From: Actinobacillus genomosp. 2 | GTDB lineage: Bacteria > Pseudomonadota > Gammaproteobacteria > Enterobacterales > Pasteurellaceae | DNA: 64,000 nt | Assembly: GCF_029773605.1 (NCBI RefSeq) | Contig: NZ_CP103807.1 | Span: forward strand, 1,364,001-1,428,000 | Reading direction: 5' to 3' | In this document: piece after piece, positions 38,111 through 61,003 of the stretch | Position numbering within the stretch: position 1 is the stretch's first letter | How the letters are laid out: the number at the start of each line of letters is the position of its first letter | Program-made: the position numbers and the translations under genes | Notes under the pieces: model-generated | What the model saw: only the letters and a program-made list of their open reading frames with translations | What the model was told of the DNA's origin: nothing | The model's database searches: none

Positions 38111-38113
38111 AAC

Positions 38114-38917
38114 TTACAACACGCTTTGAATTGCATTAGCTTCTAATTGGGTGAAATATTTCACGGTTTTCACTTTGAGTTCTTGGGTTGCTGATTCGTC
38201 ACACACCACAACTCCTCGCTCATGCAGTTGCAAAGCACTAACCGTCCACATATGGTTTACTGCCCCTTCCACACAAGCCTGTAATGCCAACGCTTTATTG
38301 TAGCCGGTAATCAGTAACATCACTTCTTCCGCATCAAGTAATGTTGCCACACCGATGGTTAACGCATATTTTGGCACTTTGGTAACATCATTCTCAAAAA
38401 AGCGGGAATTTGCGATCAAAGTATCTTCGGTTAAGGTTTTAATCCGAGTACGTGAACGCAAAGAAGAAGCCGGTTCGTTAAACGCAATATGACCGTCCAC
38501 ACCGACACCACCCATAAACAGGTGAATTTTGCCGTATGACTGAATTTTCTGTTCATAACGGCGACATTCAGCATCGTGATCCTCGGTATTACCATTCAAA
38601 ATATTGATATTTTGTGGCTGAATATCAATATGATCAAAGAAGTTACAGTGCATAAAGGTATGGTAACTCTGCGGATGTTCCTTAGGTAAGCCGACATATT
38701 CATCCATATTAAACGTAACTACATATTTAAAGCTCACTTCACCGGCTTGGTATAAACGAATCAATTCCTGATAGGTTTGTAGTGGCGTACTGCCGGTCGG
38801 CAAACCTAACACAAAAGGGCGATCAGCCGTCGGCTGAAATTGATTGATACGTTCAACAATATGACGAGCAGCCCAGCGACTTACTTGCTCACTCGTTTGT
38901 AAAGGGATAAGACGCAT
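38114..38917 (-). CDS. nagB: Glucosamine-6-phosphate deaminase
   Basis: NagB converts glucosamine-6-P to fructose-6-P and ammonia, joining amino sugars to glycolysis. The 267 residues (E. coli 266) include [39 protein letters not shown] with the catalytic Asp, and [23 protein letters not shown] with the active-site His. 49 bp after nanA. Confidence 0.98.
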
Positions 38918-38966
38918 AATATTTCCTCATTATTATTGTTATATGTGTACAACAAGCTGTCAAATT

Positions 38967-39845: not shown

Positions 39846-39865
39846 ATTATGTTCCTTAAATTTAA

Positions 39866-40738: not shown

Positions 40739-40747
40739 ACATTCCCC

Positions 40748-41437
40748 TTAGACTTTTGCAGCTTTTATCTCATCAGCAAACCAGCTGACAATATGCTCCA
40801 AACGCGTTAATGCCGAACCAACCGTAACACAATCCGCACCGATCTCAATCGCGGTTTTAGCCAGTTGAGGGGAGTTATAACGCCCTTCCGCCATCACAAA
40901 ACAACCTGCCGCTTTTAAGTCTTTAACTAACTGATAATCCGGTTCATTTGGTACTTCTCCACCGGTATAACCCGACATCGTACTACCGACAATATCAAAA
41001 CCGAGTTGCTGGCAATATAAGCCTTCTACCAATGTCGAACAGTCCGCCATTGCCAAACAACCTAATTCGTGAATACGTTTCAACGCCGCTTCAATCGTGA
41101 CCGGTCGTACCCGATCCGTACCGTCAACTGCAATAATATCCGCACCGGCTGCCGCTAAATCTTCAATATCTTGTAAAAATGGGGTGATGCGTATCGGGCT
41201 ATCCGGTAAATCACGTTTGACAATCGCAATGATCGGTGCTTTTACTGTCGGACGCGTTGCTTTTAAATTATCTACTCCTTCAATACGTAATCCTGCCGCC
41301 CCACCGATAATTGAGGCTTGTGCCATTGCTGCCACAATCTCCGGCTTGTCCATCGGACCGTCATCAACCGGCTGACACGAAGCAATCAAACCATTTTGAA
41401 TCGTATTCAATACTTCTGTATGAGATAATTTTGACAT
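40748..41437 (-). CDS. nanE: ManNAc-6-phosphate 2-epimerase
   Basis: NanE converts ManNAc-6-P to GlcNAc-6-P. A 229-residue TIM barrel with [39 protein letters not shown], the catalytic lysine in [20 protein letters not shown] and [18 protein letters not shown]. It follows the SGNH gene by 37 bp and begins the tightly packed nanE-nanK-nanA set. No SiaR-type regulator or sialic acid transporter adjoins it. Confidence 0.97.
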
Positions 41438-41474
41438 ATAAACTCCTTGAGTCTGTTATGCTTTCCGACACATA

Positions 41475-42068
41475 TTACACATACGCCTCTAATAAGCGAC
41501 GCAAAATCGCATAACCCTGTAAATTGAAGTGCAAACCGTCCGTTGTAAATGCCGCATTGAGATTTCCCTCTGAATCCGCAAATGCCTCAAAGGTTTTAAC
41601 AAAAGTCAGATTTGCCGGACAATGTTCGCTGAAATAGGCATTAAGCTGCTGAATTTGGCTGTTCGTAACCGTATTTATATGACGAACTGGCGTAGCTTCT
41701 AGTAAGAAATAATGGGTATTTGGCATTGCAAGCGGTTGAATTTGTTCAATTATTTGCAATAACCAATGCAAGACTTGGGCAGGAGAATAGTCAGGCTCTT
41801 TCACAATATCGTTTACGCCTAAGAACAAGAAAACCTTTTGTCCTAATGAAGTAATACGCTGCGGTTTCGCTATCACATCTAAATATTGACGAGTACTCAC
41901 GCCAGAAATGCCTAAATTTGCTACTGATTTACCGTTAAAGGTAATTTCATTTTGCCAATCATTCCACATATCGAACAAAGAATGTCCTAACAAACTCACT
42001 TCCGTAACACGTTGAAATTCTTGGCTTTTAGCTTGATAACGTAGGAAAATATCCTCATCTGACAACAT
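41475..42068 (-). CDS. SGNH/GDSL hydrolase, likely sialate O-acetylesterase
   Basis: A stand-alone SGNH-fold esterase (197 residues if started at ATG 42068; a TTG one codon on has better Shine-Dalgarno spacing). Blocks in order: GHSLFDMWNDW (nucleophile Ser), NLGISGVSTRQYL (Gly), FLGVNDIV (Asn) and TDGLHFNLQGY (Asp-x-x-His). The same variant blocks (GHS in place of GDS, LGISGxTxxQYL, DGLHFNxxGY) occur in the C-terminal half of NeuA at 50.8 kb, so the two are paralogous. At the head of the nan operon it probably removes O-acetyl groups from scavenged sialic acids so NanA can act. Signal peptide not seen; activity inferred. Confidence 0.8.
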   Translation of the reverse strand: MLSDEDIFLRYQAKSQEFQRVTEVSLLGHSLFDMWNDWQNEITFNGKSVANLGISGVSTRQYLDVIAKPQRITSLGQKVFLFLGVNDIVKEPDYSPAQVLHWLLQIIEQIQPLAMPNTHYFLLEATPVRHINTVTNSQIQQLNAYFSEHCPANLTFVKTFEAFADSEGNLNAAFTTDGLHFNLQGYAILRRLLEAYV

Positions 42069-42154
42069 TTCTCCAAACCTCACACCAGTTATGAATAAAT
42101 ACGCCATTTATTATAAACTTAATGGAGTAATTTTCATTTATAATGTTTAAAATA

Positions 42155-44860: not shown

Positions 44861-45973
44861 TTATTTTCCCTCACTATTTTGTACTTGTGTCGCACCGATT
44901 ACCCCTTTCCATAAGCCTTCTCTTTGGCTCACTGAACCGCTTAATACATCACCATTACTACCATAAATACCCCCACTAAAATTAGCATCATGCTTCTTAT
45001 CATTAATTAGATGACCAGCTACTGAACCATCAGAATTAACTTGTCCACGAAATGTCCATTGTGGCACATTGTTATAAGAAGTATCTTTGTCCCCGTCTAT
45101 TTTCATACTTAACATTTTATTTGAACCGTTATATGTTGCGTTAACGATCGCATCGAATTTTGCATTATCACCGCCCTTATCATAGGAATAAATCATTTTC
45201 CCTTTATAAGATAAAGAACCGGTTGTATCAGGCAATTTCTTCATCCCTTCATCCATTGCTAAGAGAGGATAACTTTGAAAAGGTAAGTTATGTTCTTCTT
45301 TGCTTACATATCTATCTTCATTTCTGATAGATTGATGCACCTGATTTAGTCGAGCATGCCCGTAATATCCTAATAACTTGCCTTGGGAATCTTTTAGAAT
45401 ATGTGTTTCATATGGTTTTAATGTATTCGTAAATTTTTCTGTTGTATGTTGAGTTTTATAAGCGTAATCCTCCACATTTAAAATCACTTTCTGATTATCT
45501 TCCAATACAATTTGGATAGGGAAATGATTAGGTAAATGTTCTTGGACCCCTGCTTCTTTAACTAACCCAATACCTAATTCTCGTATTTTTTCTTTATTAT
45601 AATCCTCTACCGATCGCTTTATTATCTCCTGAACTATATCCTCAGGATGAGAATTTTCTTGTTGCTTGTTATGCTCTTCAGTTTGTAATAAATTATGTTT
45701 ATTTAACGAGACAATCTGATCTTTCTTAATCGGATCGATACCATGAGCTACATTATTTTGAATTGTTTTAGTTGGTACATCTTCTTTTACTGTAGAACTT
45801 AAGGAATCGTTATCTTTTACTTTCTTCCTTTGAATATGCTCTACTTTTTCCGCCTTACTTTTTACGTTTTTTAAATCTGATCGAATATTCGGAGATTTAC
45901 CATTACTACCTCCACAACCAGATAGAATCGCTCCTATAAGCAACATTAAATTAAATTTAATTATAAATTTCAT
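44861..45973 (-). CDS. Surface lipoprotein with TbpB/fHbp-like barrel
   Basis: A 370-residue predicted lipoprotein. I start it at 45973 (MKFIIKFNLMLLIGAILSGCG), which has AAGGAG upstream; the lipobox LSGC gives Cys20. A hydrophilic, charged low-complexity linker follows (to about 110). The C-terminal half has the pattern GSLSYKGKMIYSYD...FDAIVNATYNGSNKMLSMKI and WTFRGQVNSDGSVAGHLIN...ANFSGGIYGSNGDVLSGSV. This resembles the barrel domain of transferrin-binding protein B and factor H-binding lipoproteins that need Slam for surface display. No tbpA, lbpA or slam gene is nearby, so the ligand is unknown. Preceded by a 120-bp AT-rich gap. Confidence 0.7.
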   Translation of the reverse strand: MKFIIKFNLMLLIGAILSGCGGSNGKSPNIRSDLKNVKSKAEKVEHIQRKKVKDNDSLSSTVKEDVPTKTIQNNVAHGIDPIKKDQIVSLNKHNLLQTEEHNKQQENSHPEDIVQEIIKRSVEDYNKEKIRELGIGLVKEAGVQEHLPNHFPIQIVLEDNQKVILNVEDYAYKTQHTTEKFTNTLKPYETHILKDSQGKLLGYYGHARLNQVHQSIRNEDRYVSKEEHNLPFQSYPLLAMDEGMKKLPDTTGSLSYKGKMIYSYDKGGDNAKFDAIVNATYNGSNKMLSMKIDGDKDTSYNNVPQWTFRGQVNSDGSVAGHLINDKKHDANFSGGIYGSNGDVLSGSVSQREGLWKGVIGATQVQNSEGK

Positions 45974-46093
45974 AATAACTCCTTTTTGATAAATAAAAAT
46001 AAGCATTAAAACCCCATACAATGCTTACGAAATTTCAGAAACTTAATTATATTACACTTATTTACAAAGATCACAAAATATAAAATTATTTAC

Positions 46094-47828: not shown

Positions 47829-48995
47829 ATGAAAACACAAGATATTATCATTATCGGTGGCGGTATGGTCGGAGCTGCGGTAGCACTCGGCTTGGCAAAA
47901 CAAGGGTTAAATATCGCATTAATCGAAAAAAATCCGCTTCCTTCATTTGATGCGAATGCTGCTTATGATTTACGTATTTCCGCCATCAGTATTACCTCGG
48001 TCAAACTACTTGAAGAACTGGGTGCTTGGCAAGCAATCAGCCAAATGCGAATTTGCCCGTATGACGGTTTGGAAACTTGGGAAATCGAAGGATTTAATAC
48101 CGCCTTTCATGCAGAGGAAATCGGCTTGGATAAACTCGGTTTTATGGTGGAAAATAATGCAATTCAGCTCGGTTTATGGCAAGCCTTAAAGCAGTATCCA
48201 AACTGCCAACAAGCGGTAGGATTTTCGCAAATTTCTGCAAATTATCACGAACAATTATGGACAGTAACCGTTGATGAGCAAACATTTACCGCCCCACTAC
48301 TGATCGCTGCGGACGGCGCAAACTCACAAGTGCGTAGCTGGGCGAGTATTGGGCTAACCAGCTGGCAATATCGCCAACATTGTTTACTTGCCACGGTGAA
48401 AACCGAATTACCGCAACAATCGGTTACCTGGCAACAATTCTTCCCGAGCGGCCCTCGTGCATTTTTACCTCTATCAGATCACAACGGTTGTGTCGTGTGG
48501 TATGACGTACCGCAACGCATTGCTCAGCTAAAACAACTGTCTTCAGAAAAACTCACCGCCGAAATTCAACAACATTTCCCTGCCCGTTTAGGCAAAGTGG
48601 AAGTAGTCAATGCCGCCAGTTTTCCACTGACTCGCCAACACGCTCAACATTATGTCAAAAACGGCGTGGTATTGATTGGCGATGCGGCGCACACTATTAA
48701 TCCGCTTGCCGGACAAGGGGTTAATCTCGGTTTTAAAGATGTGCAAGTGTTATTGGAAGTGATTGAACAAGCGGTCAAAAAAGGCGAAAACTTTGCAAAT
48801 GAAGCGGTGCTTAAACGTTATGAACATAAACGTAAACCCGATAATTTATTGATGCAAACCGGTATGGATGTTTTTTATAAAGCCTTCAAAACCGAGTTAT
48901 TGCCAGTAAAAATTACCCGAAATTTAGGCTTGGTACTAGCGAAAAAAATTATGCCTCTTAAGAAAAAAGCATTACGCTATGCGATAGGTCTGTAA
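47829..48995 (+). CDS. ubiF: 2-polyprenyl-3-methyl-6-methoxy-1,4-benzoquinol hydroxylase (UbiF-type)
   Basis: A FAD monooxygenase of the UbiH/UbiF/VisC group that hydroxylates a ubiquinone precursor. The 388-residue protein (start 47829, GAGGGGC upstream) has the dinucleotide fold IIIGGGMVGAAVALGLAKQG, the second FAD motif GDAAHTINPLAGQGVNLGFKDV and the DG motif LLIAADGANSQVRSWASIG. Segments such as MRICPYDGLETWEIE, LGFMVENNAIQLGLWQAL and PSGPRAFLPL agree with E. coli UbiF better than UbiH or UbiI, from memory. Confidence 0.88.
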   Translation: MKTQDIIIIGGGMVGAAVALGLAKQGLNIALIEKNPLPSFDANAAYDLRISAISITSVKLLEELGAWQAISQMRICPYDGLETWEIEGFNTAFHAEEIGLDKLGFMVENNAIQLGLWQALKQYPNCQQAVGFSQISANYHEQLWTVTVDEQTFTAPLLIAADGANSQVRSWASIGLTSWQYRQHCLLATVKTELPQQSVTWQQFFPSGPRAFLPLSDHNGCVVWYDVPQRIAQLKQLSSEKLTAEIQQHFPARLGKVEVVNAASFPLTRQHAQHYVKNGVVLIGDAAHTINPLAGQGVNLGFKDVQVLLEVIEQAVKKGENFANEAVLKRYEHKRKPDNLLMQTGMDVFYKAFKTELLPVKITRNLGLVLAKKIMPLKKKALRYAIGL

Positions 48996-49015
48996 TCTAG
49001 GGGATAATGATCGAA

Positions 49016-49059
49016 TAAAAAGGATGGAATTTAACCTTATATCAAATTCCACCCTTTAT
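49016..49059. terminator. Bidirectional terminator between ubiF and the lipoprotein gene
   Basis: AAAGGATGGAATTT / AAATTCCACCCTTT can pair with one interruption. On the minus strand it is followed by TTTTTATT. Serves convergent transcription. Confidence 0.65.
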
Positions 49060-49099
49060 GACTCAGTTATCGCCGGTAGCGAATACTGTTTTAAAGCAA

Positions 49100-49657
49100 T
49101 TACAATAAGAGTGCTGAACCCCACTTGATAATATCAAAAAAGAATTTATTTTGATTAGTCGCCACACCATCGCCATTTTTAGCATCTGATTTGGTTTCCT
49201 CAACCATACCACTTTTATACTGACCTTTTACAACGGCTAAATCGGCTTTAGCTTTTTCTCTTAAGATTTGACATTGTTTCTTATCTAATGGCTCAAATTC
49301 TTGAGTATTTTTAAACTTTTTAAATTGATATTGAGCATAGCCCATCGCTTTCTCATCATCTTGAATAATTTTTACATATTGCTCGCCAATAAGCTCTTCT
49401 AAGGGATAGAAAAATACATATTGTGAGTGAATATATGAATCTTCTTTACTAAAAGCCTGTTGTTGAATCTTTGTTAAATTCGGATAAATACACTGCTCAG
49501 CCTGCTGACTGGCAATAACCCAACGCCGAGCATCTGAATCCGAAAGTATATAATCTGCATTCGCAAACTCTCCGGGGAAATTTTCTTGTTGAGAACTAGA
49601 AGATGAACAAGCTGTCACTAACCCAACAAAGGCTAATATTAACCACTTATTTCGCAT
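49100..49657 (-). CDS. Small lipoprotein, DUF5358-like
   Basis: A 185-residue lipoprotein with lipobox [11 protein letters not shown] (Cys17). The body has [26 protein letters not shown] and [36 protein letters not shown], a pattern I associate with the Pasteurellaceae DUF5358 family. Function unknown. It starts 22 bp after the neuC stop in the same direction and has its own ATG site (AAGGTATTTT upstream), so it may be read as the last gene of the neu transcript, or be an old resident at the insertion border. Confidence 0.75.
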
Positions 49658-49679
49658 AAAATACCTTTTTTAATTTTTA

Positions 49680-50834
49680 CTATAAATCGTAAAATGTTTT
49701 CGGCTGCGAAATCAGTTCCTCTGCCAAAAACGTTTTGATGATTCGATAAGCGTTTTCCATCGCATTATCTTGATAATATGGGTTTATCATTCGTGGTAAA
49801 CACTGTTGAAAATCAAGTGAAATTAATCGTTCAATCCCTACTTTAATCGCTTCTTTGGTCGTTTCCACATCAATCACACTTTCTCCGCGAACTCGACCTT
49901 GCTGACGATTGCCAATATTTACTGTGCCAACACCACAGCTTGGTGCTTCTAATAAACCGGACGAACTGTTACCGATTAAACCTGCGGAATATTTAATTAA
50001 GGCTAAATACTCTTCCGGCTTTACCGAAGTAAAAAACTTATAATGATGTTTCGTAGCATAATCTTGCAGACGTTTAAAAATTTGATCAGCATTTGTATCC
50101 GAATTTGAGCCGATAAAAACAAATTGATAGTCCGATTTAAATGTCTCTAAGGCAGCTAAAAGCTGCTTTATTTGCTCCGATACCGGCTGTTCGCTTAGTG
50201 TTTCTGGGTGAAATACTACCATAAAATAAGATGTATTCGGTATCTCTAGACTTATGATTAATTCTTCTTTAGTCGGTAACGCCAGTAATAAACTATTTTC
50301 CGCACCTAATGAACCGATATTATGTACATATTGAGGATCTTCACCTAATTGAATCACCCGTTTTCTATATGTTTCAGTTGCAGTTAAATGTAATTTCGAC
50401 ATTTTCGTAATACAATGACGAATAAATTCATCATAATTACCGAGCGTCTGTTCTCCGCCGTGTAAATGAATCAAAGGAATATTATGTATTGCAGCTGCGG
50501 TTGCAACCGCAAGCATCTCATAGCGATCCCCTAATATCATAACCGCATCATATTTATGCTGTTGAAAATGCCTACCAAAATCATCTAAACATTCCGCCAT
50601 AGAATGAATAATCGTTTGATTATTTTCAGCATTCAAGGTTAATGGTATACGAGCCGCAATATCAAAACCGTCTTTTTCAATGAGTTCTACTGTTTTTCCA
50701 TATTGTGCGTCCAAATGCATAGCGGTAACTACTAAAGAAAAATCTAGTTCAGTATCTTCATTTAATTTTTTCAGTAAGCGTTTAACAATACCATACTCAG
50801 CTCTTGATCCAGTAATATATGCAATTCGTTTCAT
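49680..50834 (-). CDS. neuC: UDP-GlcNAc 2-epimerase (hydrolysing) NeuC
   Basis: NeuC converts UDP-GlcNAc to ManNAc and UDP, the first step to Neu5Ac. The 384 residues show RIAYITGSRAEYGIVKRLLKKL, the catalytic-site RYEMLAVATAAAIHNIPLIHLHGGEQTLGNYDEFIRH, VVFHPETLS and GNSSSGLLEAPSCGVGTVNIGNRQQGR. Adjacent to neuA (one-base overlap). In direction of transcription the order neuD-neuB-neuA-neuC is that of E. coli K1. Confidence 0.97.
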   Translation of the reverse strand: MKRIAYITGSRAEYGIVKRLLKKLNEDTELDFSLVVTAMHLDAQYGKTVELIEKDGFDIAARIPLTLNAENNQTIIHSMAECLDDFGRHFQQHKYDAVMILGDRYEMLAVATAAAIHNIPLIHLHGGEQTLGNYDEFIRHCITKMSKLHLTATETYRKRVIQLGEDPQYVHNIGSLGAENSLLLALPTKEELIISLEIPNTSYFMVVFHPETLSEQPVSEQIKQLLAALETFKSDYQFVFIGSNSDTNADQIFKRLQDYATKHHYKFFTSVKPEEYLALIKYSAGLIGNSSSGLLEAPSCGVGTVNIGNRQQGRVRGESVIDVETTKEAIKVGIERLISLDFQQCLPRMINPYYQDNAMENAYRIIKTFLAEELISQPKTFYDL

Positions 50835-52096
50835 TATTTGATCTCTTGTTCCAAAATAGCGGTCAATTTTTCATAGCCTTTTGCATTAAAATGTAAACCG
50901 TCATGACTATATTCCAAGTTAAGTTTTTGGTATTTATCACTGAAATGCTCAGCTAAATCCACCCAAATCACATCCTTCAAATATTGCTTCAAATACATAT
51001 TTAATGACTTAATTTCCGTATTATCACGATCTACCCGTAAGGCTGTCGGTATAATCTCAAGGAAATAAACTTCAACCTCCGGATTAATTTGCTTTAAATT
51101 TTGAATGATTTCCTGAATATTAGACACGACTTGCTCTTTACTCCAATCAGGATAAACAATGTCATTCGTACCGAGCATTAAAATCACTTTTTTACCCAGT
51201 TTTTGAATAAGTTGTTGATTCAGAATAAGAGATAAATACTGCTGTGCAGTAATACCTGAAATTCCTAAATTATTTACTTCCAATCCTCTTAAAGTTCGAA
51301 TATCCCACTGATCTAAAATAGAATGGCCAATCAAAGTGATTGGTTTAGTCTGATGGAACAATTCAGTTTTGGAAGTAATTTGTTGCTTAATACGATTTAA
51401 TAAAAGTTCAAAACGTTTTTGTTGCTGAGTAAGAAAATAGAAGTATTCAAAATCCTGTCGATCATCAATATCTACTGCTTTTTCTCGTTCCATAAAATAA
51501 GCTAAAGATTTAGTACCAAAGAAGTGTTTTTGTTCTAAATAAGCGGTTGGTTTTGCGATAAAAATCGCACCATTCGGAGAATATTCTTGTCGATATTGTT
51601 GACGAGTATAATTGGTATAATCTAACTGTAAATGCTTGAGACTCCCATCTTCATCAATCGGAAAAGTTAATGAAGTTGGTTTATGTACGTCCGATACTGA
51701 AACACAAAAATCAAATTGCTCAAAATGACGTTCAAATTTTTTACAGGCTTCTTTGATATGTTTTGCCGTCCGTAACGGAGAGGTCGGCTGTAATAAGACA
51801 AAATAATCAAATTTGATTGCATGATACTGTTTTAGTACATCTTCAATCACCACAAATGAACTGGCATTATCACTCGCTAAATGTGCCGCTCGTTTTAGAA
51901 ATTCAATCGGATAATGAGACAATAAATCAATATATTCTTGCGAATCAGTACTCACAATAATTTTTTCAAACTCACCTGACTGTATTGCCGCCTCAATCGA
52001 ATAGGCGATTAACGGTTTCCCGTTTACCAATAAAACATTTTTATTCGGCAAGCCTTTTGAGCCTGCACGTGCTGTAATAATGGCTATTTTTTTCAT
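50834..52096 (-). CDS. neuA: CMP-Neu5Ac synthetase fused to SGNH O-acetylesterase (NeuA)
   Basis: Residues 1-225 form the CMP-sialic acid synthetase: IITARAGSKGLPNKNVLLVNGKPLIAYSIEAA with the CTP loop, FVLLQPTSPLRTAKHI and DIDDRQDFEY metal and substrate motifs. Residues about 240-420 form an SGNH esterase (LIGHSILDQWDIR, NLGISGITAQQYLSLIL, MLGTNDIVYPDW, HDGLHFNAKGY). This two-domain length (420) matches E. coli K1 NeuA (about 418), whose C-terminal half removes O-acetyl groups from sialic acid. Meningococcal synthetase lacks it. 51 bp after neuB. Confidence 0.96.
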   Translation of the reverse strand: MKKIAIITARAGSKGLPNKNVLLVNGKPLIAYSIEAAIQSGEFEKIIVSTDSQEYIDLLSHYPIEFLKRAAHLASDNASSFVVIEDVLKQYHAIKFDYFVLLQPTSPLRTAKHIKEACKKFERHFEQFDFCVSVSDVHKPTSLTFPIDEDGSLKHLQLDYTNYTRQQYRQEYSPNGAIFIAKPTAYLEQKHFFGTKSLAYFMEREKAVDIDDRQDFEYFYFLTQQQKRFELLLNRIKQQITSKTELFHQTKPITLIGHSILDQWDIRTLRGLEVNNLGISGITAQQYLSLILNQQLIQKLGKKVILMLGTNDIVYPDWSKEQVVSNIQEIIQNLKQINPEVEVYFLEIIPTALRVDRDNTEIKSLNMYLKQYLKDVIWVDLAEHFSDKYQKLNLEYSHDGLHFNAKGYEKLTAILEQEIK

Positions 52097-52147
52097 AAAT
52101 TTTACCGCTTATCTGTTAAATATGCCCCCCAATAGGAGGGTAAAATA

Positions 52148-53185
52148 TTACATTTGATTTTCGAAACGACTGTCAGCAATTAACTGATCTTCTTCAAAAT
52201 CCTGTTCTGCTGTTTTACCCAATACCTCATACCAAAACATTGGACTAATGCCATTACCCGGACGTTTAGTGGTAAGATTCTCAACGGTAAACACTTCGCC
52301 TTTTTTAATCGCTCGAGCGGCAATAATGGATTTACGTGCCACAATTTTATTTTTCATTTCGGAACGTGTTACGACTTTTTTCGAACAACCTAACGACTTC
52401 TCAACTGCCCGAATCCCTTCACATAATAATTTTAATTCTTCTGGAGTGACCGAAGCTTTATGGTCAGGTCCCTCAAAATTTTTATCTAAGGTAAAATGTT
52501 TTTCAATAAACGTAATACCGTAAGGCACCGCTGCGAGTCCTGCAAAATAACCAGCAGAATGGTCAGAAAAACCTAAGCGATATTCACTAAATTCTTGTTT
52601 CAACTGATGAAAAGCATTTAAGTTCACATCCTCATAAGGCGTTGGATATTCGGTATTACAATGTAGTATAGTAATATCTTTTTTTGCCATACCATTCTCT
52701 TCCAGCACTTTAAGTGCACATTGAGTTTCTTCAATCGTTGCCATTCCAGTTGAAATGATGACTGTTTTTCCTTCAATCGGTAAACGGGCAATTTTTTCCA
52801 AATAGGGTAAGTTAGTTAATTCACCGGACGGAATTTTCCATATTTTTTGTCGCTGACTTGCCAAGAAATCAATTGATTCAAAATCAAATGGCGTAGAAAA
52901 TACTTCTAAGTCCAATGAACGTGCATAACTGTCTAGTTTGATAAATTCCTCATAAGGTAATTCCAGTTTACGCGTCATCTCCAATTGAGAATCTGTTGTA
53001 CCGGTCGTGATTTTTTGATATTCCGCTTTCGGTGCATATTTTGAAATTAATTTATCAGCCTTAAAGGTTTGAAATTTTACGGCATCTACACCACATGTTT
53101 TGGCTACATCAACCATTTTCTTCGCTAATGCAGGATCGCCGTTATGATTACAGCCAATCTCCGCAACAATAAATACTTTACTCAT
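52148..53185 (-). CDS. neuB: N-acetylneuraminate synthase NeuB
   Basis: NeuB condenses ManNAc with phosphoenolpyruvate to give Neu5Ac. The 345-residue protein has the TIM-barrel domain (FIVAEIGCNHNGDPALAKKMVDVAK, AVKFQTFKADKLISKYAPKAEYQ, YRLGFSDHSAGYFAGLAAVPYGITFIEKHFTLDK) and a C-terminal antifreeze-like SAF domain (RKSIIAARAIKKGEVFTVENLTTKRPGNGISP). It overlaps neuD by 8 bp, so the pair is co-translated. Confidence 0.97.
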   Translation of the reverse strand: MSKVFIVAEIGCNHNGDPALAKKMVDVAKTCGVDAVKFQTFKADKLISKYAPKAEYQKITTGTTDSQLEMTRKLELPYEEFIKLDSYARSLDLEVFSTPFDFESIDFLASQRQKIWKIPSGELTNLPYLEKIARLPIEGKTVIISTGMATIEETQCALKVLEENGMAKKDITILHCNTEYPTPYEDVNLNAFHQLKQEFSEYRLGFSDHSAGYFAGLAAVPYGITFIEKHFTLDKNFEGPDHKASVTPEELKLLCEGIRAVEKSLGCSKKVVTRSEMKNKIVARKSIIAARAIKKGEVFTVENLTTKRPGNGISPMFWYEVLGKTAEQDFEEDQLIADSRFENQM

Positions 53186-53810
53186 TTATATTCCTGATGA
53201 TTCTTGCCGGGACTCCGGCGACCACGGTTTCCGATATGACATTTTTAGTCACTACTGCTCCGGAACCTACTACAGCTCTTTTACCAATATGAAGTTGCCC
53301 GTTAATAATCGAAGAACTACCTATAAATGAATATTCGGAAACAAATACATCACCATTTAATGTTGTATTAGTTGAAATATTGCAATGATCTTCAATACAG
53401 CAACCATGTTCAATTAATGACTTAGTATTAATAATGACATTATTACCAATCTTAGTTCCCGCATTGACAATAGATAATTTTCCGATAAAAACTCCAATAC
53501 CTAATTCACTTCTTTCTGAAACAATCGCTGATTTATCTATTACACTAATAATTTTACAATTAAGTTCTTGAAGAGAAATAAATTTTCTTGATCGATTTTC
53601 ATTTCCTCCAATACTGACAAAATAACAATAATTATCTCTATCGTTAAACTCTCTTATTGTTTTTGCTACTATAGGATATCCTAAATGTGAGCTACCGATA
53701 GGCTTTGAGTTATCAATAAATCCATAAAATTCATACTTTTCCTGATCTAACGAATCTAATGCAGATTTAGCGTAACCTCCAGCACCAATAAAAATAACTT
53801 TTTGTTTCAT
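53178..53810 (-). CDS. neuD: NeuD-type sialic acid acetyltransferase
   Basis: A 210-residue left-handed beta-helix acyltransferase with an N-terminal Rossmann-like PglD domain (KVIFIGAGGYAKSALDSLDQEKYEFYGFIDN) and imperfect hexapeptide repeats from about 95 (IGVFIGKLSIVNAGTKIGNNVIINTKSLIEHGCCIEDHCNISTNTTLNGDV). The catalytic His is in IEHGC. NeuD of E. coli K1 is needed for polysialic acid and acetylates sialic acid monomer or stabilises NeuB. Clearly more AT-rich than neuB-neuA-neuC. Confidence 0.9.
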   Translation of the reverse strand: MKQKVIFIGAGGYAKSALDSLDQEKYEFYGFIDNSKPIGSSHLGYPIVAKTIREFNDRDNYCYFVSIGGNENRSRKFISLQELNCKIISVIDKSAIVSERSELGIGVFIGKLSIVNAGTKIGNNVIINTKSLIEHGCCIEDHCNISTNTTLNGDVFVSEYSFIGSSSIINGQLHIGKRAVVGSGAVVTKNVISETVVAGVPARIIRNINE

Positions 53811-53920
53811 TTTTTCTTCCTAAGATAAATTTAGAAATACTTTGATAATATTCATTACTATATTCTAGATATAACACAGATATAAACTAGAAAATTCTTA
53901 TAGATATGATTGAGTGACAA

Positions 53921-55267
53921 CTATAAAAATTTATATAAGCGCATTTCAGGATTAGTATAAATTGCATAGATTTCATCTAAGATATCTACAATATTTCCAT
54001 CTAACTCTTGACTATCATTATCTACAACTAATCTCTCATATTTTCCTCTTAACTCTTCCTTAGTTTTATTTTCTGGAATTGTTAGTGGAATACCTGTAGC
54101 GTGACCAGAGAAATTTAATTTGATAATATCAACATTCTCACAATCTGATATTTTATTGATCTCATTCACATCCATCAGAAACTTATTTCCGTAAAATATA
54201 GATAATAAATTCCCATCTTTAATCTTAAATTTGATATATTCGTTTGATTTCAAAATTAATTTTTCTAAGATAGGATTGCAAGCGATCTTCTCTGCCAAAC
54301 TTCTATAACTCAAAACTGAAAGATTTTGATTAAATGGCCAAAGTGCTATTTGAGGTGAACAAGCAACTGCCTTAATCACGACTTCTGGAAGATGTTCTTG
54401 TAAAAGATTAATCAGCATAATGGCAGCAGTACCACCTTTTGACAGTCCAACAATAGATATTTTTTCATATTGTTTAATCTTTTGTAACTCTATGATTTTC
54501 TTAGCAATACTCTCGATAGATAACATATAATAACTCTCTGAGAGATCAACTACATTTAATCTATCGCCTGTAAATGGATACTTAGTTAGAATAAAATCCA
54601 TATTAGATGATAAAGTGACAAATAAATTATTTTCCTTGTTATCAATAAAATCAGACTTAAATAAGCTGTGATAAAAATATTGTTTATATCGATGAGATGA
54701 AGTGAAATTTCCAGCGTTTTTATGTAACTCTGCTAAAACAAGATAGTCTGAAGCAGTATTCTTATCGGAAAGTTCAATAGCATAGGACATATCTTTTAAA
54801 AGAGAAGTATTGATACCTTCTTTAAATTTAATACAACATAAAATTTTAAGTAGATCTGCTTTACCATTTTTCTTTGCAATCTCCTCTACTTCTCTGAGTT
54901 CAAAAATATCTAATGATTTTCCTAATCTATACTTTAAGATAAAATTTTTATATTTTGCACTTAATAGTTTAGGATTCAGTTCTAATGCTTTCTCAAAATA
55001 GAATTGTGAACATTCAAGATCATTTCTCAACCAGTAGCACTCAGCTAACATCTCATAAATAAAATAATCCATTAGATTGGTATGGTTTTCTAAAACCTTA
55101 CAAACTTTAATACATAATGATAATTTTTTAGTTTTAAATAAACTAATTGATAAATATCTAAGTGACTCAGAGTCTAGCTTTTCTATTTCTACTTTTATTA
55201 AGTTATTAATAACTTCTTGATACTTCTGCTCATTAAACAGCCTTTTCATATAATTCTTACGTTTCAT
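53921..55267 (-). CDS. OatC-like polysialic acid O-acetyltransferase with TPR region
   Basis: A 448-residue protein. The N-terminal 200 residues are helical TPR-like repeats (LRYLSISLFKTKKLSLCIKVC, YEMLAECYWLRNDLECSQFYFEKALELNP). The C-terminal part is an alpha/beta hydrolase fold with elbow VGLSKGGTAAI. The candidate triad is Ser276, Asp366 (FLMDVNE) and His389 (FSGHATG). The spacing Ser-90-Asp-23-His is exactly that of meningococcal OatC (Ser286, Asp376, His399, recalled from the literature), the serogroup C polysialate O-acetyltransferase of about 460 residues. Context between a polysialyltransferase and neuD supports the call. Very AT-rich. A plain esterase is the alternative. Confidence 0.7.
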   Translation of the reverse strand: MKRKNYMKRLFNEQKYQEVINNLIKVEIEKLDSESLRYLSISLFKTKKLSLCIKVCKVLENHTNLMDYFIYEMLAECYWLRNDLECSQFYFEKALELNPKLLSAKYKNFILKYRLGKSLDIFELREVEEIAKKNGKADLLKILCCIKFKEGINTSLLKDMSYAIELSDKNTASDYLVLAELHKNAGNFTSSHRYKQYFYHSLFKSDFIDNKENNLFVTLSSNMDFILTKYPFTGDRLNVVDLSESYYMLSIESIAKKIIELQKIKQYEKISIVGLSKGGTAAIMLINLLQEHLPEVVIKAVACSPQIALWPFNQNLSVLSYRSLAEKIACNPILEKLILKSNEYIKFKIKDGNLLSIFYGNKFLMDVNEINKISDCENVDIIKLNFSGHATGIPLTIPENKTKEELRGKYERLVVDNDSQELDGNIVDILDEIYAIYTNPEMRLYKFL

Positions 55268-55272
55268 ATTTA

Positions 55273-56448
55273 TTACCTCCCAAATAAATACTTATTAAAT
55301 TTAGAATCTATAAAAAAATCTTTAGGTGATCTAACTAATTTCTTTAATTTTTGATACTTGTTAGATTTATTCATATATTGTCTCCCTTTAAAAAATAGAA
55401 ATCTTTTATGTAATTTTGATGGATGATTTAGAATATTCTCAATAGCTTTTTTCAAGATATCATCTCTATTATTATCAAAATATAAGTTTTTTTCTAACCA
55501 TAATACTGAAGGTATAGAACGAAGGCCTTTCTCTATTTCATTAAAACTAAGAAAAAGATCACTTCCTAAAAAGTTATCTAAGGCATAATTATCATTAATA
55601 CCCAAATCAGAAATTATCGCAATAGGGATACCGTAATATAATGCTTCTAACAATACTGTGGATGAAAAAGAAAGACATAAATCCATCTTATGATAAAGAT
55701 CAGCAATAGGTTCATTTGATATTTGAAAATTAGTCGGTAATTCTTTTTTATTTAGAATATCTATATAACTAATCTTATCCTCATGGACCGTTACTTCACG
55801 CTCAATAATTCTTCTTTTAAAGATAACTTCCTTTTCTGGATAATTTTTCGCCAAATTAATTAGCCTATCTACCACAAATTCTTTTTCTTCCTTAGTTTCA
55901 GGTATTCTAATTTGCTCAATAAAAACTATTGTTTTTTCAGAATTCCTTTTTGAAAAACTATTTTTCTTATTTATATCAATATTGATTAAACCATAATGTA
56001 TAACCTCGGTAGTTGAACGATAAACCTTAAGGATTTCATTCACTTTTTCTTTATCTAATAGGCTATTCACTAAGATAATATCTGTATCTATTCTAGATAA
56101 AATACTTTCTGTATGTCCAAATATTAACCCTGGAAAAATCGAAATAATAATAGGACGTTTACAAGATAGAGAATGTTTCTCGTAAAAATGAGCAATGAAT
56201 TTTTTTGTTGCCGTATTACCAACAGACAGAATAATAATATCGTATTGTAAGTAATCTAAATCATAGCTAAATAATATCTGGTGATATTTAATTGCATTAC
56301 TTTCTAATAATTGTCTGAGAGATATTTGATTCCGTTTTACTGGAAAAATCATTATTTCTATATTTTCATCCCTTGAAATTCTCTCTGCCACCTTAATCCC
56401 AGAATTAAGAAAAGAATCATAGGTAGCAACTACTAGTACTTTATACAT
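55273..56448 (-). CDS. GT-B-like capsule biosynthesis protein, possible NeuE counterpart
   Basis: A 391-residue cytoplasmic protein of unassigned family. The N-terminal half starts KVLVVATYDSFLNSGIKVAERI. The C-terminal half has a GT-B-like donor region (IADLYHKMDLCLSFSSTVLLEALYYGIPIAIISDLGIND). The C-terminus carries KKLVRSPKDFFIDSKFNKYLF, a P-x-x-F-x-x-D-S motif also found at the N-terminus of the neighbouring polysialyltransferase. It could be an initiating or accessory enzyme equivalent to NeuE of E. coli K1. It lies 5 bp before the OatC-like gene and 2 bp after the polysialyltransferase. Confidence 0.55.
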   Translation of the reverse strand: MYKVLVVATYDSFLNSGIKVAERISRDENIEIMIFPVKRNQISLRQLLESNAIKYHQILFSYDLDYLQYDIIILSVGNTATKKFIAHFYEKHSLSCKRPIIISIFPGLIFGHTESILSRIDTDIILVNSLLDKEKVNEILKVYRSTTEVIHYGLINIDINKKNSFSKRNSEKTIVFIEQIRIPETKEEKEFVVDRLINLAKNYPEKEVIFKRRIIEREVTVHEDKISYIDILNKKELPTNFQISNEPIADLYHKMDLCLSFSSTVLLEALYYGIPIAIISDLGINDNYALDNFLGSDLFLSFNEIEKGLRSIPSVLWLEKNLYFDNNRDDILKKAIENILNHPSKLHKRFLFFKGRQYMNKSNKYQKLKKLVRSPKDFFIDSKFNKYLFGR

Positions 56449-56450
56449 AA

Positions 56451-57662
56451 TTAAATTTGGCTTATATCACTGATAAAATCTACATTTTTAAATTTATTCA
56501 AAATAGTAAAATGGTCCTCTACTTCATAAAAGATCTTATGCTCATAAGCTATACTTTCTAGCATTTTCTCTTTTATTAATAAATAAATGGATTCCGCATT
56601 GATATCATCAACCAACAATTTTGAATAAATGAGGCTAGTTGAAGTTAATGCTAAAACTTTCTTTGGTTTTACAGTTTTAATTAAAGATTCAACTAGAAAA
56701 CCATATTCATCAATTAATATAATGTTTGATGACATTGATAAATTTGCTATTTCCTGTCTTAAAACCTCTTTAAGTTCTTCCGGATCTTTAGGGTGAAGTT
56801 TTATAAATACTTTACAATCGTATTTCTCTGCATATGTGGATAATATTTCAACTAAACATTGAGCATATACCTCTTGCGGAAACGGATATCTTTGATTTAA
56901 AAAAAGAATATCATCGGTAGATATCTCATATCTATTCTTAATATTTAAAGCTGTTTTACCAATCTCAATATTTTTATAGAGAAAAAATTCCTTACCCTCT
57001 TTAAAATTAAATGTATCTTTAAGCAATTCAGGAAAAACTGCATAAACCTTATTAAACCCATTAAAAACTGATAATACCGGTCTTAATTCTCTGAACATAG
57101 GTAGCATATTGATGACAAAAGCAGTCTTTTTCTCTTTTATGGATAAACTTGATTTGACTAAAGTATTAGCTTCATTCAAATTTGTATACTTATAGGTTGC
57201 AGTACCTTCCTCAATTAAATTAACTTCTATATTTCTTTCACTAGCTCTTTGTGCAAGTAAACAATAATGTTTTTCAAAACTAAACATAAATAGTCTATGC
57301 GGTTTAATTTTTGCCAATAAACTTCTATAAGAATTATTAATATAAATGAGATTCTTAATCTGTACTTTATTTGGGAAAGAGGGAATTTTTAATTGCTGAA
57401 CACGATTAAATAAACTTGGATTTGATGCTTTTTTGACCATTACCGGCATCATTGTATTCTTTTTTGTGTATAAAATAATTAAAACACAATTCAACAATTT
57501 TTCTTGTTTAATTAATGCTTCCGCTTGAGATAATTGACCAAGATGAGTAAGAACAAATAAATTTTTCGTCTTTTTAAAATCTTCCAAATGCGCATATTTG
57601 CAAACCCAAGAGTCTGCCATAAATCTTAAAGGATTAACTAGAAATTTTCTTATCTTCTTCAT
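56451..57662 (-). CDS. neuS: NeuS-like polysialyltransferase (GT38 family)
   Basis: A 403-residue glycosyltransferase that by homology adds sialic acid from CMP-Neu5Ac to a growing polymer. Landmarks shared with E. coli NeuS as I recall it: VNPLRFMADSWV (9-20), FVLTHLGQL (36-44), YTKKNTMMP (65-73), SFEKHYCLL (128-136), LIEEGTATYK (149-158), TDDILFLNQRY (249-259), VFIKLHPK (285-292) and LALTSTSLIYSKLL (337-350). The D/E-D/E-G (EEG 151-153) and HP (290-291) motifs known to be essential in bacterial sialyltransferases are present. Linkage type cannot be read from sequence. First gene of the locus; very AT-rich. Confidence 0.8.
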   Translation of the reverse strand: MKKIRKFLVNPLRFMADSWVCKYAHLEDFKKTKNLFVLTHLGQLSQAEALIKQEKLLNCVLIILYTKKNTMMPVMVKKASNPSLFNRVQQLKIPSFPNKVQIKNLIYINNSYRSLLAKIKPHRLFMFSFEKHYCLLAQRASERNIEVNLIEEGTATYKYTNLNEANTLVKSSLSIKEKKTAFVINMLPMFRELRPVLSVFNGFNKVYAVFPELLKDTFNFKEGKEFFLYKNIEIGKTALNIKNRYEISTDDILFLNQRYPFPQEVYAQCLVEILSTYAEKYDCKVFIKLHPKDPEELKEVLRQEIANLSMSSNIILIDEYGFLVESLIKTVKPKKVLALTSTSLIYSKLLVDDINAESIYLLIKEKMLESIAYEHKIFYEVEDHFTILNKFKNVDFISDISQI

Positions 57663-58041
57663 AGCCTATATTCTTAATTTTAGTATAAACAAAAATCTTT
57701 AATAACTTTACATTAATTAACTAAATTTAATTTTTGATCAAAATAAAAAGAAAAAGCAAATGAATTAGCTATTTATTTTTTATGTAATAACATAAAAATA
57801 CAACATAAAAGATTATAAAGAATAAAATTCCTACTGATTTATAGTATATAACACTAGTTATAAAGAAAGATTATTCCAAATATCATATTTTAAATTCTCT
57901 TTGATAAACCGTTAACCATCATCAGAATTTTACAAAATTGGCTCACATTACAAATAAAAATGTTAGTAATCAGTACAATCTGCAATCAACCTAAGTTAAA
58001 ATAGAACAAGCTATTCCTACTTATCCTATAAGGAGATCTTT
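57663..58041. promoter_or_regulatory. Divergent promoter region, neu locus and 5'-nucleotidase
   Basis: This 379-bp AT-rich gap has no gene. It should hold the start of the neu transcript (minus) and of the nucleotidase gene (plus; a TAAAAT lies near 57998). I see no JUMPstart/ops element (GGCGGTAG), which often precedes capsule operons, and no capsule export gene. Confidence 0.4.
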
Positions 58042-59706
58042 ATGAAAAAAGTACTCGGTACTTTATTTGTGCTTTCTGCGGTAAGTGTTGCCGTCGCGAA
58101 AGAAGTTAATATTAAATTTTTAGGTACATCAGATGTTCACGGGCGTATAGTACCTTGGAACTATGGCGCGGATATTGAGGACAAATCCGGTTCTTACGCG
58201 CAAATTTCCACCTATGTAAAAGAGGTACGCCAAAATAATAAAAATGTAGTGTTAGTCGATATCGGTGATGCGATTCAAGACAACCAAGTGGAAGTTTTTG
58301 CTAAAACGAAAAAATACTACAAAGACAACCCGGTTCCTAAAGTATTAAACGAAATGAAATACGACTATTTTATTTTAGGTAACCACGAATTTAACTTCGG
58401 TATGACCGCTTTAGATGAAATCATTAAAGACATTAATGCCAAAGTATTAACTGCCAACTTCTACTACAAAAAAGATGGTAAACGTTACGTTACTGCCACC
58501 GATATTATTGAAAAAGGCGGTGTAAAACTCGGTTTAATCGGTTTAACTACACCAATGTCGGCAACCTTCGAAAAAGATACCCATCACCTTGATGAGATGA
58601 AATTCAGCTCACCAAGCGAAGAAGCGAAGGCACAAATTGCCGAGTTAAAAGCGAAAGGAGTTGATGCGATTATCGTGTTAGCACATATGGGGATTGAAAA
58701 CGAAAATAATATCCCTGATACCGGCGTGGCGGATTTAGTTAATAATGTGGAAGGCATTGATGTGATTATCGCCGGTCATATGCACAAAAACGTCTCAGCG
58801 GAAACGATTAAAAATACTCTGATTACCGAACCACACCGCTACGGTACTGTGGTTTCAGAAGTGGATTTAGCCTTTGATGTCGCGGATGACGGCAAAGTGA
58901 AATTACTTTCAAAAAATGCAAAAACCGTACCGGTTAAAGCATTGGCTTCAGATCCTGCAATCGAAAAAATTTATCAACCATATCATGACGAATTACGCCG
59001 TTTGAACAATGTGAAAATCGGCGAAACCGTACAAACCATGATTCCGCAAGGTAAAAATCACGGCGTAGCGATTGCCTTCACGCAAGATACCGGTTTATCT
59101 TCATTGATTAATGACGTGCAACAACATTACAGTAAAGCGGACGTGGTGTCTTTTGCCTTCGACCACCAAACCGTACGTTTAGACAAAGGCGATATTAAGA
59201 AAAAAGATATTATCTATAACTATCGCTATGCGGGTGGTGATGTAAGCGTTTATGAAGTAACAGGCAAACAGCTCAAGGCATATATGAACTGGTCGGCAGA
59301 TTACTTCGATACAATTCAACCGCAAGATAAAGACTACCGTATAAATGAAAAACGCGGCAAATCGAAATATGTCACCTTTGATATTTTCGGTGGCGTAAAA
59401 TTCAACATTGATTTACGCAAACCAAGCGGCGAGAAAATTGTTGATCTTAGCCTTGCCAATGGCACAGCAATTACTGATGACAGCAAAATCAAACTCGGTA
59501 TGAATTCATATCGCTATGAACAACTCATCAAAAAAGGCGGCGTATGGGAAGGACAACAAATCCTGGTATTATGGGAATCTAAAGTCGCAATGGGCAGCGA
59601 AGCCGGCACCATTCAAAATATGATGATCGATTACATCTCTAACGTGAAAAAAGGCAAAGTAGAAGGCGTGTCTCACAACCGCTGGAAAATTGTCGGTTTA
59701 GAGTAA
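58042..59706 (+). CDS. Periplasmic 5'-nucleotidase / metallophosphoesterase
   Basis: A 554-residue UshA-family enzyme that would dephosphorylate nucleotides in the periplasm. The signal peptide MKKVLGTLFVLSAVSVAVA is cut near residue 19. The metallophosphatase domain has IKFLGTSDVHGRIVPW, VLVDIGDAIQDNQ, ILGNHEFNFGM, VLAHMGIE and IIAGHMHKN, giving the two-metal site. The C-terminal 5'-nucleotidase domain (about 320-554) includes FAFDHQTVRLDKGDI and YEVTGKQLKAYMNWSADYF. AAGGAG lies eight bases before the ATG. Substrate range not readable; it differs from NadN by lacking the usual NAD-specific context. Confidence 0.9.
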   Translation: MKKVLGTLFVLSAVSVAVAKEVNIKFLGTSDVHGRIVPWNYGADIEDKSGSYAQISTYVKEVRQNNKNVVLVDIGDAIQDNQVEVFAKTKKYYKDNPVPKVLNEMKYDYFILGNHEFNFGMTALDEIIKDINAKVLTANFYYKKDGKRYVTATDIIEKGGVKLGLIGLTTPMSATFEKDTHHLDEMKFSSPSEEAKAQIAELKAKGVDAIIVLAHMGIENENNIPDTGVADLVNNVEGIDVIIAGHMHKNVSAETIKNTLITEPHRYGTVVSEVDLAFDVADDGKVKLLSKNAKTVPVKALASDPAIEKIYQPYHDELRRLNNVKIGETVQTMIPQGKNHGVAIAFTQDTGLSSLINDVQQHYSKADVVSFAFDHQTVRLDKGDIKKKDIIYNYRYAGGDVSVYEVTGKQLKAYMNWSADYFDTIQPQDKDYRINEKRGKSKYVTFDIFGGVKFNIDLRKPSGEKIVDLSLANGTAITDDSKIKLGMNSYRYEQLIKKGGVWEGQQILVLWESKVAMGSEAGTIQNMMIDYISNVKKGKVEGVSHNRWKIVGLE

Positions 59707-59716
59707 TCAATGCAAT

Positions 59717-59779
59717 ACAAGCGGTTAAATTCCTCAAGATTTTTGCAAAAAGTTAGGGGAATTTGACCGCTTGTTTTAT
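59717..59779 (+). terminator. Inverted uptake-sequence pair after the nucleotidase gene
   Basis: ACAAGCGGTTAAATTCC (59717 on) pairs with GGAATTTGACCGCTTGT (to 59774) and is followed by TTTATT. It begins 11 bp after the stop codon and likely ends the transcript. Confidence 0.75.
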
Positions 59780-59855
59780 TCTCTACACTCTATTCGTTCG
59801 CTTCTGACAACAGATGTTTTACACCATAATCTACTAATATTTAAAGAATGTTATT

Positions 59856-59876: not shown

Positions 59877-59907
59877 TTAGGGAGATTTGTTCTTTCATTA
59901 TGATTAA

Positions 59908-59965
59908 GTAAGTTTATAAAACATAAGCGGTTAAATTTCCCGAATTTTTTACAAAATTATAGGGG
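59908..59965. repeat. 58-bp direct repeat flanking vapBC (left copy)
   Basis: Fifty-seven of 58 bases equal 60927-60984 (one A/G change). The copy includes GTAAGTTTATAAAACAT and the uptake-like arm AAGCGGTTAAATTTCCC. The extension to 59986 makes a 17-bp stem (AAGCGGTTAAATTTCCC with GGGAATTTAACCGCTT) followed by TTTTTT, so this copy is also a terminator. Confidence 0.8.
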
Positions 59966-60061
59966 AATTTAACCGCTTGATTTTTTCACTTAGATTAGAA
60001 ATATTTGTTAGGATATAAAAAACGTCCCTCGAGAAACTGGCATTATCGAACGCAACAAAAG

Positions 60062-60460
60062 CTATACCCAATTAGCTAATCGTAATCCTTCCACACGTTC
60101 AAATTCACGCAAGTTATTGGTTACTAATACGAGTCCTTCACTTCTTGCATGTGCGGCAATATGAATATCGTTCTCGCCGATGATCTCACCTTGCTTAGAT
60201 AAATGTGCTTTGATATTACCAAAGTGAGTAGCCGCCTTATGCGTATAATCAAGAATCGTTAAACGAGAAAGAAAATCCTCAATGACTGCCATATTTCGTT
60301 CCGGAAACTGGCTTTTCTCTGCACCATAATATAACTCAGCCGCTGTAATACTACTCACGCAAAGACGAGTGGAATTTAAATTAAACTTATCCAGCACTTC
60401 AATAGGTCTGCGTTTAATCACATAAATCGCAATGTTAGTATCAAGCATATAAGTCAGCAT
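60062..60460 (-). CDS. vapC: VapC-type PIN-domain toxin
   Basis: A 132-residue PIN ribonuclease, usually cutting initiator or other tRNA. Acidic active-site residues are Asp7 (YMLDTNI), Glu42 (TAAELYYG) and Asp98 (GENDIHIAA), with the C-terminal VTNNLREFERVEGL. Full length, so likely functional. It starts in the last base of the vapB stop codon (TAATG). Confidence 0.95.
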   Translation of the reverse strand: MLTYMLDTNIAIYVIKRRPIEVLDKFNLNSTRLCVSSITAAELYYGAEKSQFPERNMAVIEDFLSRLTILDYTHKAATHFGNIKAHLSKQGEIIGENDIHIAAHARSEGLVLVTNNLREFERVEGLRLANWV

Positions 60461-60836: not shown

Positions 60837-60940
60837 CCAAGCCCGGAAAGCTGGCTCCACCAACAAGCCAATTATGATTTATGGCAAGCCCAACAAAAAC
60901 CTATGCCCTTTATTCGGCAAATATCTGTAAGTTTATAAAA
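60837..60940 (+). pseudogene. Possible C-terminal coding relic
   Basis: A plus-strand frame reads GENSPSPESWLHQQANYDLW then QAQQKPMPFIRQISVSL and a stop, with protein-like composition, but it has no start codon or promoter. Its last codons lie in the right copy of the direct repeat. It may be the tail of a gene disrupted when vapBC arrived. Family not recognised. Confidence 0.25.
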
Positions 60941-60984
60941 CATAAGCGGTTAAATTTCCCGAATTTTTTGCAAAATTATAGGGG
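60927..60984. repeat. 58-bp direct repeat flanking vapBC (right copy)
   Basis: Right partner of 59908-59965 in the same orientation, about 1.02 kb apart. Its own right arm (GGGGTTTAGCCGCTTGG) is altered compared with the left copy, so the hairpin is weaker here. Confidence 0.8.
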
Positions 60985-61003
60985 TTTAGCCGCTTGGCTC
61001 TAC

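Follow-up and report, generated by a model that had tools for sequence, protein, structure and literature searches.

We analysed a 64,000-base stretch of the genome of Actinobacillus genomosp. 2 (contig positions 1364001-1428000, hereafter the window; the genome is one contig of 1,883,708 bases with an estimated completeness of 81.9%) that carries a run of seven genes predicted to make and polymerise sialic acid. The run occupies window positions 49680-57662 on the minus strand (contig 1413680-1421662), between a gene with a lipoprotein-like start and a divergent nucleotidase gene. A sequence-only reading had placed a complete O-acetyl polysialic acid synthesis locus within these limits and between these neighbours, and the coordinates and profile matches bear out the seven-gene run. 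The genes are listed below in order of transcription, followed by the two flanking genes; percentages are identities to the homologue in Escherichia coli K1 or UTI89.

56451..57662, minus strand: putative polysialyltransferase (NeuS-like, GT38), 403 amino acids; PF07388 (A-2_8-polyST), 237 bits; Mannheimia haemolytica SiaD, E 1e-76; K1 NeuS, 33% over 406 positions
55273..56448, minus strand: NeuE homologue (DUF6716 putative glycosyltransferase), 391 amino acids; PF20471, 152.6 bits; 27% over 266 positions, E 1e-15
53921..55267, minus strand: OatC-like alpha/beta-hydrolase with N-terminal TPR-like helices, candidate polysialate O-acetyltransferase, 448 amino acids; GLSKGG at Ser276, Asp366, His389
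53178..53810, minus strand: neuD, sialic acid acetyltransferase-type protein, 210 amino acids; NCBIfam NeuD_NnaD 195.7 (cut-off 160.8); K1 NeuD, 47%
52148..53185, minus strand: neuB, N-acetylneuraminate synthase, 345 amino acids; NeuB and SAF domains; NCBIfam NeuB_NnaB 466.5 (cut-off 399.65); K1 NeuB, 67%
50834..52096, minus strand: neuA, CMP-sialic acid synthetase with C-terminal GDSL esterase domain, 420 amino acids; CTP_transf_3 PF02348 and PF13472; K1 NeuA, 44%
49680..50834, minus strand: neuC, UDP-GlcNAc 2-epimerase, 384 amino acids; Epimerase_2; NCBIfam NeuC_NnaA 444.8 (cut-off 235.9); K1 NeuC, 55%
49100..49657, minus strand: DUF5358 flanking gene, lipoprotein-like start, outside the pathway; PF17311, 245.8 bits
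58042..59706, plus strand: divergent 5'-nucleotidase flanking gene, outside the pathway; PF00149 and PF02872

None of the seven operon genes contains an internal stop, and neighbours either overlap by at most 8 bases or are separated by at most 110 bases. The G+C content of the run is 0.31 against 0.38 for the window, and 0.26-0.28 in the first three genes. The DUF5358 gene is present in all nine genomes of the genus and serves as a landmark for the site; the window ends 6.3 kilobases (kb) past the operon.

The polysialyltransferase matches its family over its full length (PF07388 profile positions 1-315 of 316) and is homologous to the solved M. haemolytica enzyme (PDB 5WCN) over 381 residues. 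Mutants of that enzyme have been measured at seven residues, Q41, Q44, E152, E153, R259, H291 and K293 (PMC5517516). All but Q41 are kept here, that position being His in our protein and Asn in K1, and the proposed assisting residues S339 and T340 (PMC5517516) are kept as well. These features place the protein in family GT38 and predict that it polymerises sialic acid, with 2,8 or 2,9 linkages.

The product of the second gene had been called a 'GT-B-like protein'; the gene stands, but its identity is better described otherwise. The gene beside neuS in E. coli UTI89 is annotated DUF6716, and the alignment of the window's DUF6716 protein with the UTI89 one identifies it as a homologue of E. coli K1 NeuE, so that the run holds the K1 set neuDBACES and one further gene. 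A search of solved structures with the NeuE homologue returned no match. K1 NeuE has been proposed to prime the capsule glycolipid linked through 3-deoxy-D-manno-octulosonic acid (Kdo) (PMC5517516). The one further gene, OatC-like, reaches no curated Pfam or NCBIfam cut-off and has weak TPR and hydrolase matches below cut-off; among solved structures its product finds TPR-repeat proteins and weak esterase-type matches. The protein does carry the elbow GLSKGG around Ser276, and Asp366 and His389 are conserved in the alignment; a GXSXGG elbow with Ser, Asp and His is the pattern of alpha/beta-hydrolase capsule O-acetyltransferases such as OatC (PMC7387560). The homologue in Bisgaardia hudsonensis has GSSKAG at the elbow. 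Homologues adjoin the polysialyltransferase gene in four other genomes (G002, G028, G023 and G096). By its sequence pattern the gene is a candidate, as yet unproven, for a polysialate O-acetyltransferase.

No export gene was seen beside the operon. Across the whole genome, Capsule_synth (KpsC/KpsS) matches fall only at 1571650-1574792 and Poly_export has a single match, at 1557795-1558049. Intact homologues of KpsT, KpsM, KpsE and KpsD (a BexABCD/HexABCD set) occupy 1554502-1558313, the KpsE homologue scoring above the cut-off of BexC_CtrB_KpsE, and intact KpsS and KpsC homologues lie at 1571611-1574909, 13 kb past that set. The polysialyltransferase gene is 132.8 kb from the first export gene, and the export machinery as a whole lies about 133-153 kb off the operon. 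A group 2 capsule is marked by a KpsMTED-type exporter with KpsC/KpsS, both of which this genome contains, and by synthesis genes between or next to the export genes, an arrangement that the neu operon does not show. The sequence-only reading had reported no export gene on either side and proposed a genome search for kps-, ctr- or wza-type genes; that search returned the one distant set with KpsS/KpsC, as its suggestion of a sialic acid polymer with a distant exporter would have it. Outside its view lay the genes of another polymer at the exporter and the linkage of the polysialyltransferase to capsule genes in relatives.

The export locus encodes a Stealth protein (CR1 and CR2 above cut-off) and a protein of 1244 amino acids with an N-terminal GT2 domain followed by PF04464, together with a protein that has weak hydrolase matches only and a hexapeptide-repeat protein. 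A GT-A domain joined to a TagF-like one is the architecture of polymerases for phosphate-containing capsules in Actinobacillus pleuropneumoniae and others (PMC5974469). The 1244-residue protein is thus a putative GT2/TagF-like polymerase of a second polymer, predicted to contain phosphate, and the genome has genes for two polymers and a single exporter, in searches that did not take in Wzx/Wzy routes, other ABC transporters or a gene-by-gene reading of positions 1428001-1540000.

The polysialyltransferase gene was present in 7 of 199 genomes searched, our own included, and in all five carriers outside the genus it adjoins capsule export or KpsC/KpsS genes. Polysialyltransferase and NeuE genes adjoin HexABCD in G027, G028, G069 (Pasteurella testudinis) and G023 (B. 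hudsonensis); in G096, close to the end of a contig, they adjoin KpsC/KpsS, and stops interrupt the frame of the polysialyltransferase. A full neuDBAC set lies near the polysialyltransferase in P. testudinis only, G027, G028 and G023 having a neuA-like gene alone. A class-wide PF07388 search gave matches in 14 of 369 genomes, our protein scoring 237.5 bits and the next 74.6; these distant matches were left out of the statement on linkage to capsule genes. A scan of genome contigs with a single polysialyltransferase query confirmed no relative, and with a six-sequence alignment it found three loci, one of them in Microbulbifer okhotskensis (30% identity).

The remaining carrier is a sister species (G002), in which the operon lies between the same two neighbours and encodes proteins 90-96% identical to ours. 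Its export locus differs from that of our genome, holding a third, Kdo-type gene set: a GT2/Capsule_synth protein, a hexapeptide acetyltransferase-like protein, and three enzymes that score above NCBIfam cut-offs, namely a Kdo-8-phosphate synthase, a CMP-Kdo synthetase and a KpsF-type isomerase. Between the two species the ratio of nonsynonymous to synonymous divergence (dN/dS) of the operon genes is 0.06-0.23, all seven genes being intact in both, and the operon is under purifying selection. Synonymous divergence (dS) is 0.21-0.41 in the operon and 0.10-0.25 in menD, ubiF and DUF5358; it is 0.65-0.79 in HexB, HexD and KpsS, 0.25 in HexA and 0.36 in KpsC (HexC, in two frames in G002, was left out). 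By this measure the operon resembles its chromosomal neighbours more than it does the part of the export genes that looks exchanged, although most of its values are a little higher than those of the neighbours. Split frames, which may reflect errors of sequencing, are frequent in G002; among the several genes affected are the nucleotidase gene, HexC and a mutS-like gene, whereas each of the seven operon genes is whole.

A short terminal element joins enzymes of the two polymers. The N-terminus of the polysialyltransferase (KKIRKFLVNPLRFMADS) resembles the C-terminus of the NeuE homologue (QKLKKLVRSPKDFFIDS), where a polymerase-type tag stands in place of the hydrophobic end of K1 NeuE, and the basic pattern KKLxxxPxxFFxDS recurs at the N-terminus of the 1244-residue polymerase (L082:2649-6383). 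We built a tag profile from eight seeds, all polysialyltransferase or NeuE pieces, with the regular expression and the E 0.02 limit set after the sequences had been viewed. Run on 677 open reading frames of at least 100 amino acids, it matched 14 proteins below E 0.02. Eight of these are the seeds and four are other polysialyltransferase or NeuE proteins; the remaining two are our 1244-residue polymerase (at its N-terminus) and a Stealth protein of G008. Matches to polysialyltransferase and NeuE are expected because all eight seeds come from these families, which leaves two independent ones, the 1244-residue polymerase and the G008 Stealth protein. Twenty shuffled sets, which preserve residue make-up only, gave no match (best E 0.04). 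No tag fell below E 0.02 in the broken G096 polysialyltransferase, a 696-residue protein of G002 or an 888-residue protein of G008. Separately, a profile comparison of NeuE and polysialyltransferase aligned 28 columns, at the tag, with a probability of 7.5%, and we do not claim homology between the two.

Work on related enzymes suggests what such a tag might do. The first 20 residues of the M. haemolytica enzyme are a putative membrane anchor (PMC5517516); in K1, a fusion protein that carries the C-terminal region of NeuE is brought by it to the membrane, and two-hybrid assays show NeuS binding to both KpsC and KpsE (PMC2408645). The tag may serve these enzymes as a common anchor or as a docking element. 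The E. coli K1 study expected polymerases of groups 2 and 3 to have an interactive domain in common, and the tag is a candidate for it (PMC2408645).

On balance we judge it probable that these seven genes form a working group 2 module for polysialic acid, one that stands apart from its export genes and whose product leaves in trans through machinery that a second polymer also uses. NeuC, NeuB, NeuD and NeuA would yield CMP-N-acetylneuraminic acid (CMP-Neu5Ac), NeuE would help to start or couple chains on a poly-Kdo glycolipid from the distant KpsS and KpsC, the polysialyltransferase would extend the chains and the OatC-like enzyme would add O-acetyl groups to them, and the BexABCD/HexABCD set 133 kb off would export the polysialic acid. 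Because the export locus also carries the TagF-like polymer genes, the two polymers would share one glycolipid anchor and one exporter. The ATP-binding cassette (ABC) transporter is believed to recognise the common glycolipid and not the polymer (PMC11666461). A bolder proposal, which we put forward tentatively as somewhat less than an even bet, is that two group 2 polymers, an O-acetylated polysialic acid and a swappable 'serotype' polymer, are made at once on one Kdo glycolipid and exporter; polysialic acid would be fixed outside the serotype locus, and the shared tag would dock both enzyme sets at the same assembly complex. Should both polymers reach the cell surface, a natural strain would be passing two unrelated polymers through one exporter, and the role of the Kdo glycolipid as sole export signal and the competition of polymerases for primer would become directly testable. 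Polysialic acid is a sugar chain that also coats animal cells, and capsule typing, which usually goes by the genes beside the exporter, would miss this host-like polymer here.

Several points count against the proposal of a working module exported in trans. Export in trans beside another polymer is a prediction drawn from K1 and other group 2 systems, as are the proposed activities, linkage, O-acetylation, Kdo priming and co-expression, and the module's working state is read from genes, residues and selection. K1 NeuE is required for export and not strictly for synthesis, and binding between NeuE and NeuS was undetected (PMC2408645), so that the priming role of NeuE is disputed. The two structure models, built on alignments of two and three sequences, are too poor for a fold search (mean pLDDT, a per-residue confidence score, of 61.5 and 54.4). 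The tag is missing, or undetected at E 0.02, in the G028 polysialyltransferase, G028 NeuE and K1 NeuE, and the Stealth protein of our own genome scores E 3.1 only.

Three other explanations deserve weight. Regulation or silencing might choose between polysialic acid and the TagF-like polymer, so that the cell makes one polymer at a time or keeps one synthesis set active. The two sets would have to draw on a single Kdo primer and exporter, for which the genome offers one Poly_export match and one Capsule_synth cluster, and in the open-licence literature searched no natural strain was seen to be reported with two group 2 polymers; yet the genes of both sets are intact, and window positions 48901-58200 contain no single-base runs of 8 or more and no short repeats of 5 or more units, so that a simple phase-switch signature is absent there. 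We regard such a choice as unlikely. More doubtful still is a role of the enzymes in decorating some other carrier, for instance lipooligosaccharide, with sialic or oligosialic acid and not in making a capsule, a possibility the sequence-only reading had kept alongside its distant exporter. Bacterial sialic acids do often sit on lipooligosaccharide, and the operon does lie apart from the exporter, but the polymerase is full-length and GT38-like with a NeuE gene adjacent in the same operon, as in K1. Our genome has no sialyltransferase of family GT52, which the same search finds in 31 of 100 genomes, and none of family GT80, which is found in 15 of 61; both occur in the same five of the nine genomes of the genus. 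As these families were not found here and are found in relatives, a lipooligosaccharide role is less likely. GT42 was also not found, but in a search that had no working control, a point that again tells against the capsule explanation.

The surroundings of the DUF5358 gene in the genus bear on the third explanation, that the operon is an unused leftover region 2 whose export genes moved off and gained new polymer genes. In G006 and G008, which lack the operon, a HexABCD locus with its region 2 adjoins DUF5358, the site of the operon here, and the region 2 of G006, flanked by DUF5358 and HexD and carried on the minus strand, has the layout of our neu genes. KpsC/KpsS lie 111 kb from HexABCD in G008 and 126 kb in G006, so that scattering of capsule genes is common in this group. 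In G001, G003, G004, G005 and G007, no gene in the 20 kb around DUF5358 matched our genome's export genes, and the exporter was not sought elsewhere in them. The polysialic acid region 2 may thus have stayed beside DUF5358 while the exporter moved away. No leftover homology was found between the polysialyltransferase leader and the DNA upstream of HexD, and for want of such a scar the split of one ancestral capsule locus stays an unproven suggestion. Disuse fits poorly with seven genes that are intact and under constraint in two species, and we consider it improbable.

The window also holds genes for the opposite process. The sialic acid breakdown genes nagA, nagB, nanA, nanK and nanE occupy window positions 36918-42107 (minus strand), about 8 kb from neuC, and a GDSL esterase gene at 41475-42107 sits with them; the G002 copy of the GDSL protein matches part of neuA at 37% identity. 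Synthesis and breakdown of sialic acid are probably both open to the cell. Elsewhere in the window are a gene for a putative lipoprotein of 386 amino acids that adjoins menH (44861-46021, minus strand; no Pfam match up to E 1e-5) and a VapC-type endonuclease gene above NCBIfam cut-offs (60062-60460, minus strand). Intergenic pieces at 59714-59785, 59907-59992 and 60927-60996 resemble each other's surroundings in G002 and G007, in both orientations. The word ACAAGCGGT occurs at 59717 and 59766, and 19 times in the whole window on both strands, while AAGTGCGGT does not occur in it. We take these words to be the two Pasteurellaceae uptake-signal types, in which case the genome would be of the A. 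pleuropneumoniae type.

Comparison with known systems locates what is new. All six neu genes of E. coli K1 (neuDBACES with kps) are shared, with proteins 27-67% identical in aligned parts, and homologues of KpsC, KpsS, KpsM, KpsT, KpsE and KpsD exist in this genome. K1, however, keeps synthesis and export in one cluster, whereas in our genome 133 kb separates the two, the neu set has gained an OatC-like gene and another polymer's genes sit at the exporter. At the level of the enzyme, and not of the locus, the M. haemolytica A2 polysialyltransferase (PDB 5WCN, 5WC6) shares its catalytic base and HP motif with ours and differs at Q41. The OatC (CssE) protein of Neisseria meningitidis serogroup C, likened to ours by pattern and not by sequence, has the GXSXGG elbow with Ser, Asp and His in a polysialic acid gene set, as here (PMC7387560). 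The architecture of the A. pleuropneumoniae-type TagF-like polymerases (PMC5974469) recurs in the 1244-residue protein of the export locus and not in the neu operon.

In the open-licence literature searched we saw no case in which a complete set of polysialic acid genes stands away from an exporter accompanied by the genes of another polymer. The closest arrangements are partial. Neisseria has scattered capsule regions, and in N. weaveri cssABC lies apart from the other capsule genes; the excerpt available to us mentions only cssABC, with no polysialyltransferase, as standing apart, whereas here the whole set does (PMC6202450). Moraxella bovis Epp63, in which not every gene of the set is contiguous, produces alpha-2,8 polysialic acid; the other isolates of that study have chondroitin-like genes in its place, and the part of the source available to us describes no second polymer set next to the exporter (PMC12797221). 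Every component of the system in this Actinobacillus thus belongs to a known family, and it is the arrangement that appears to be new, with partial precedents in Neisseria and Moraxella bovis.

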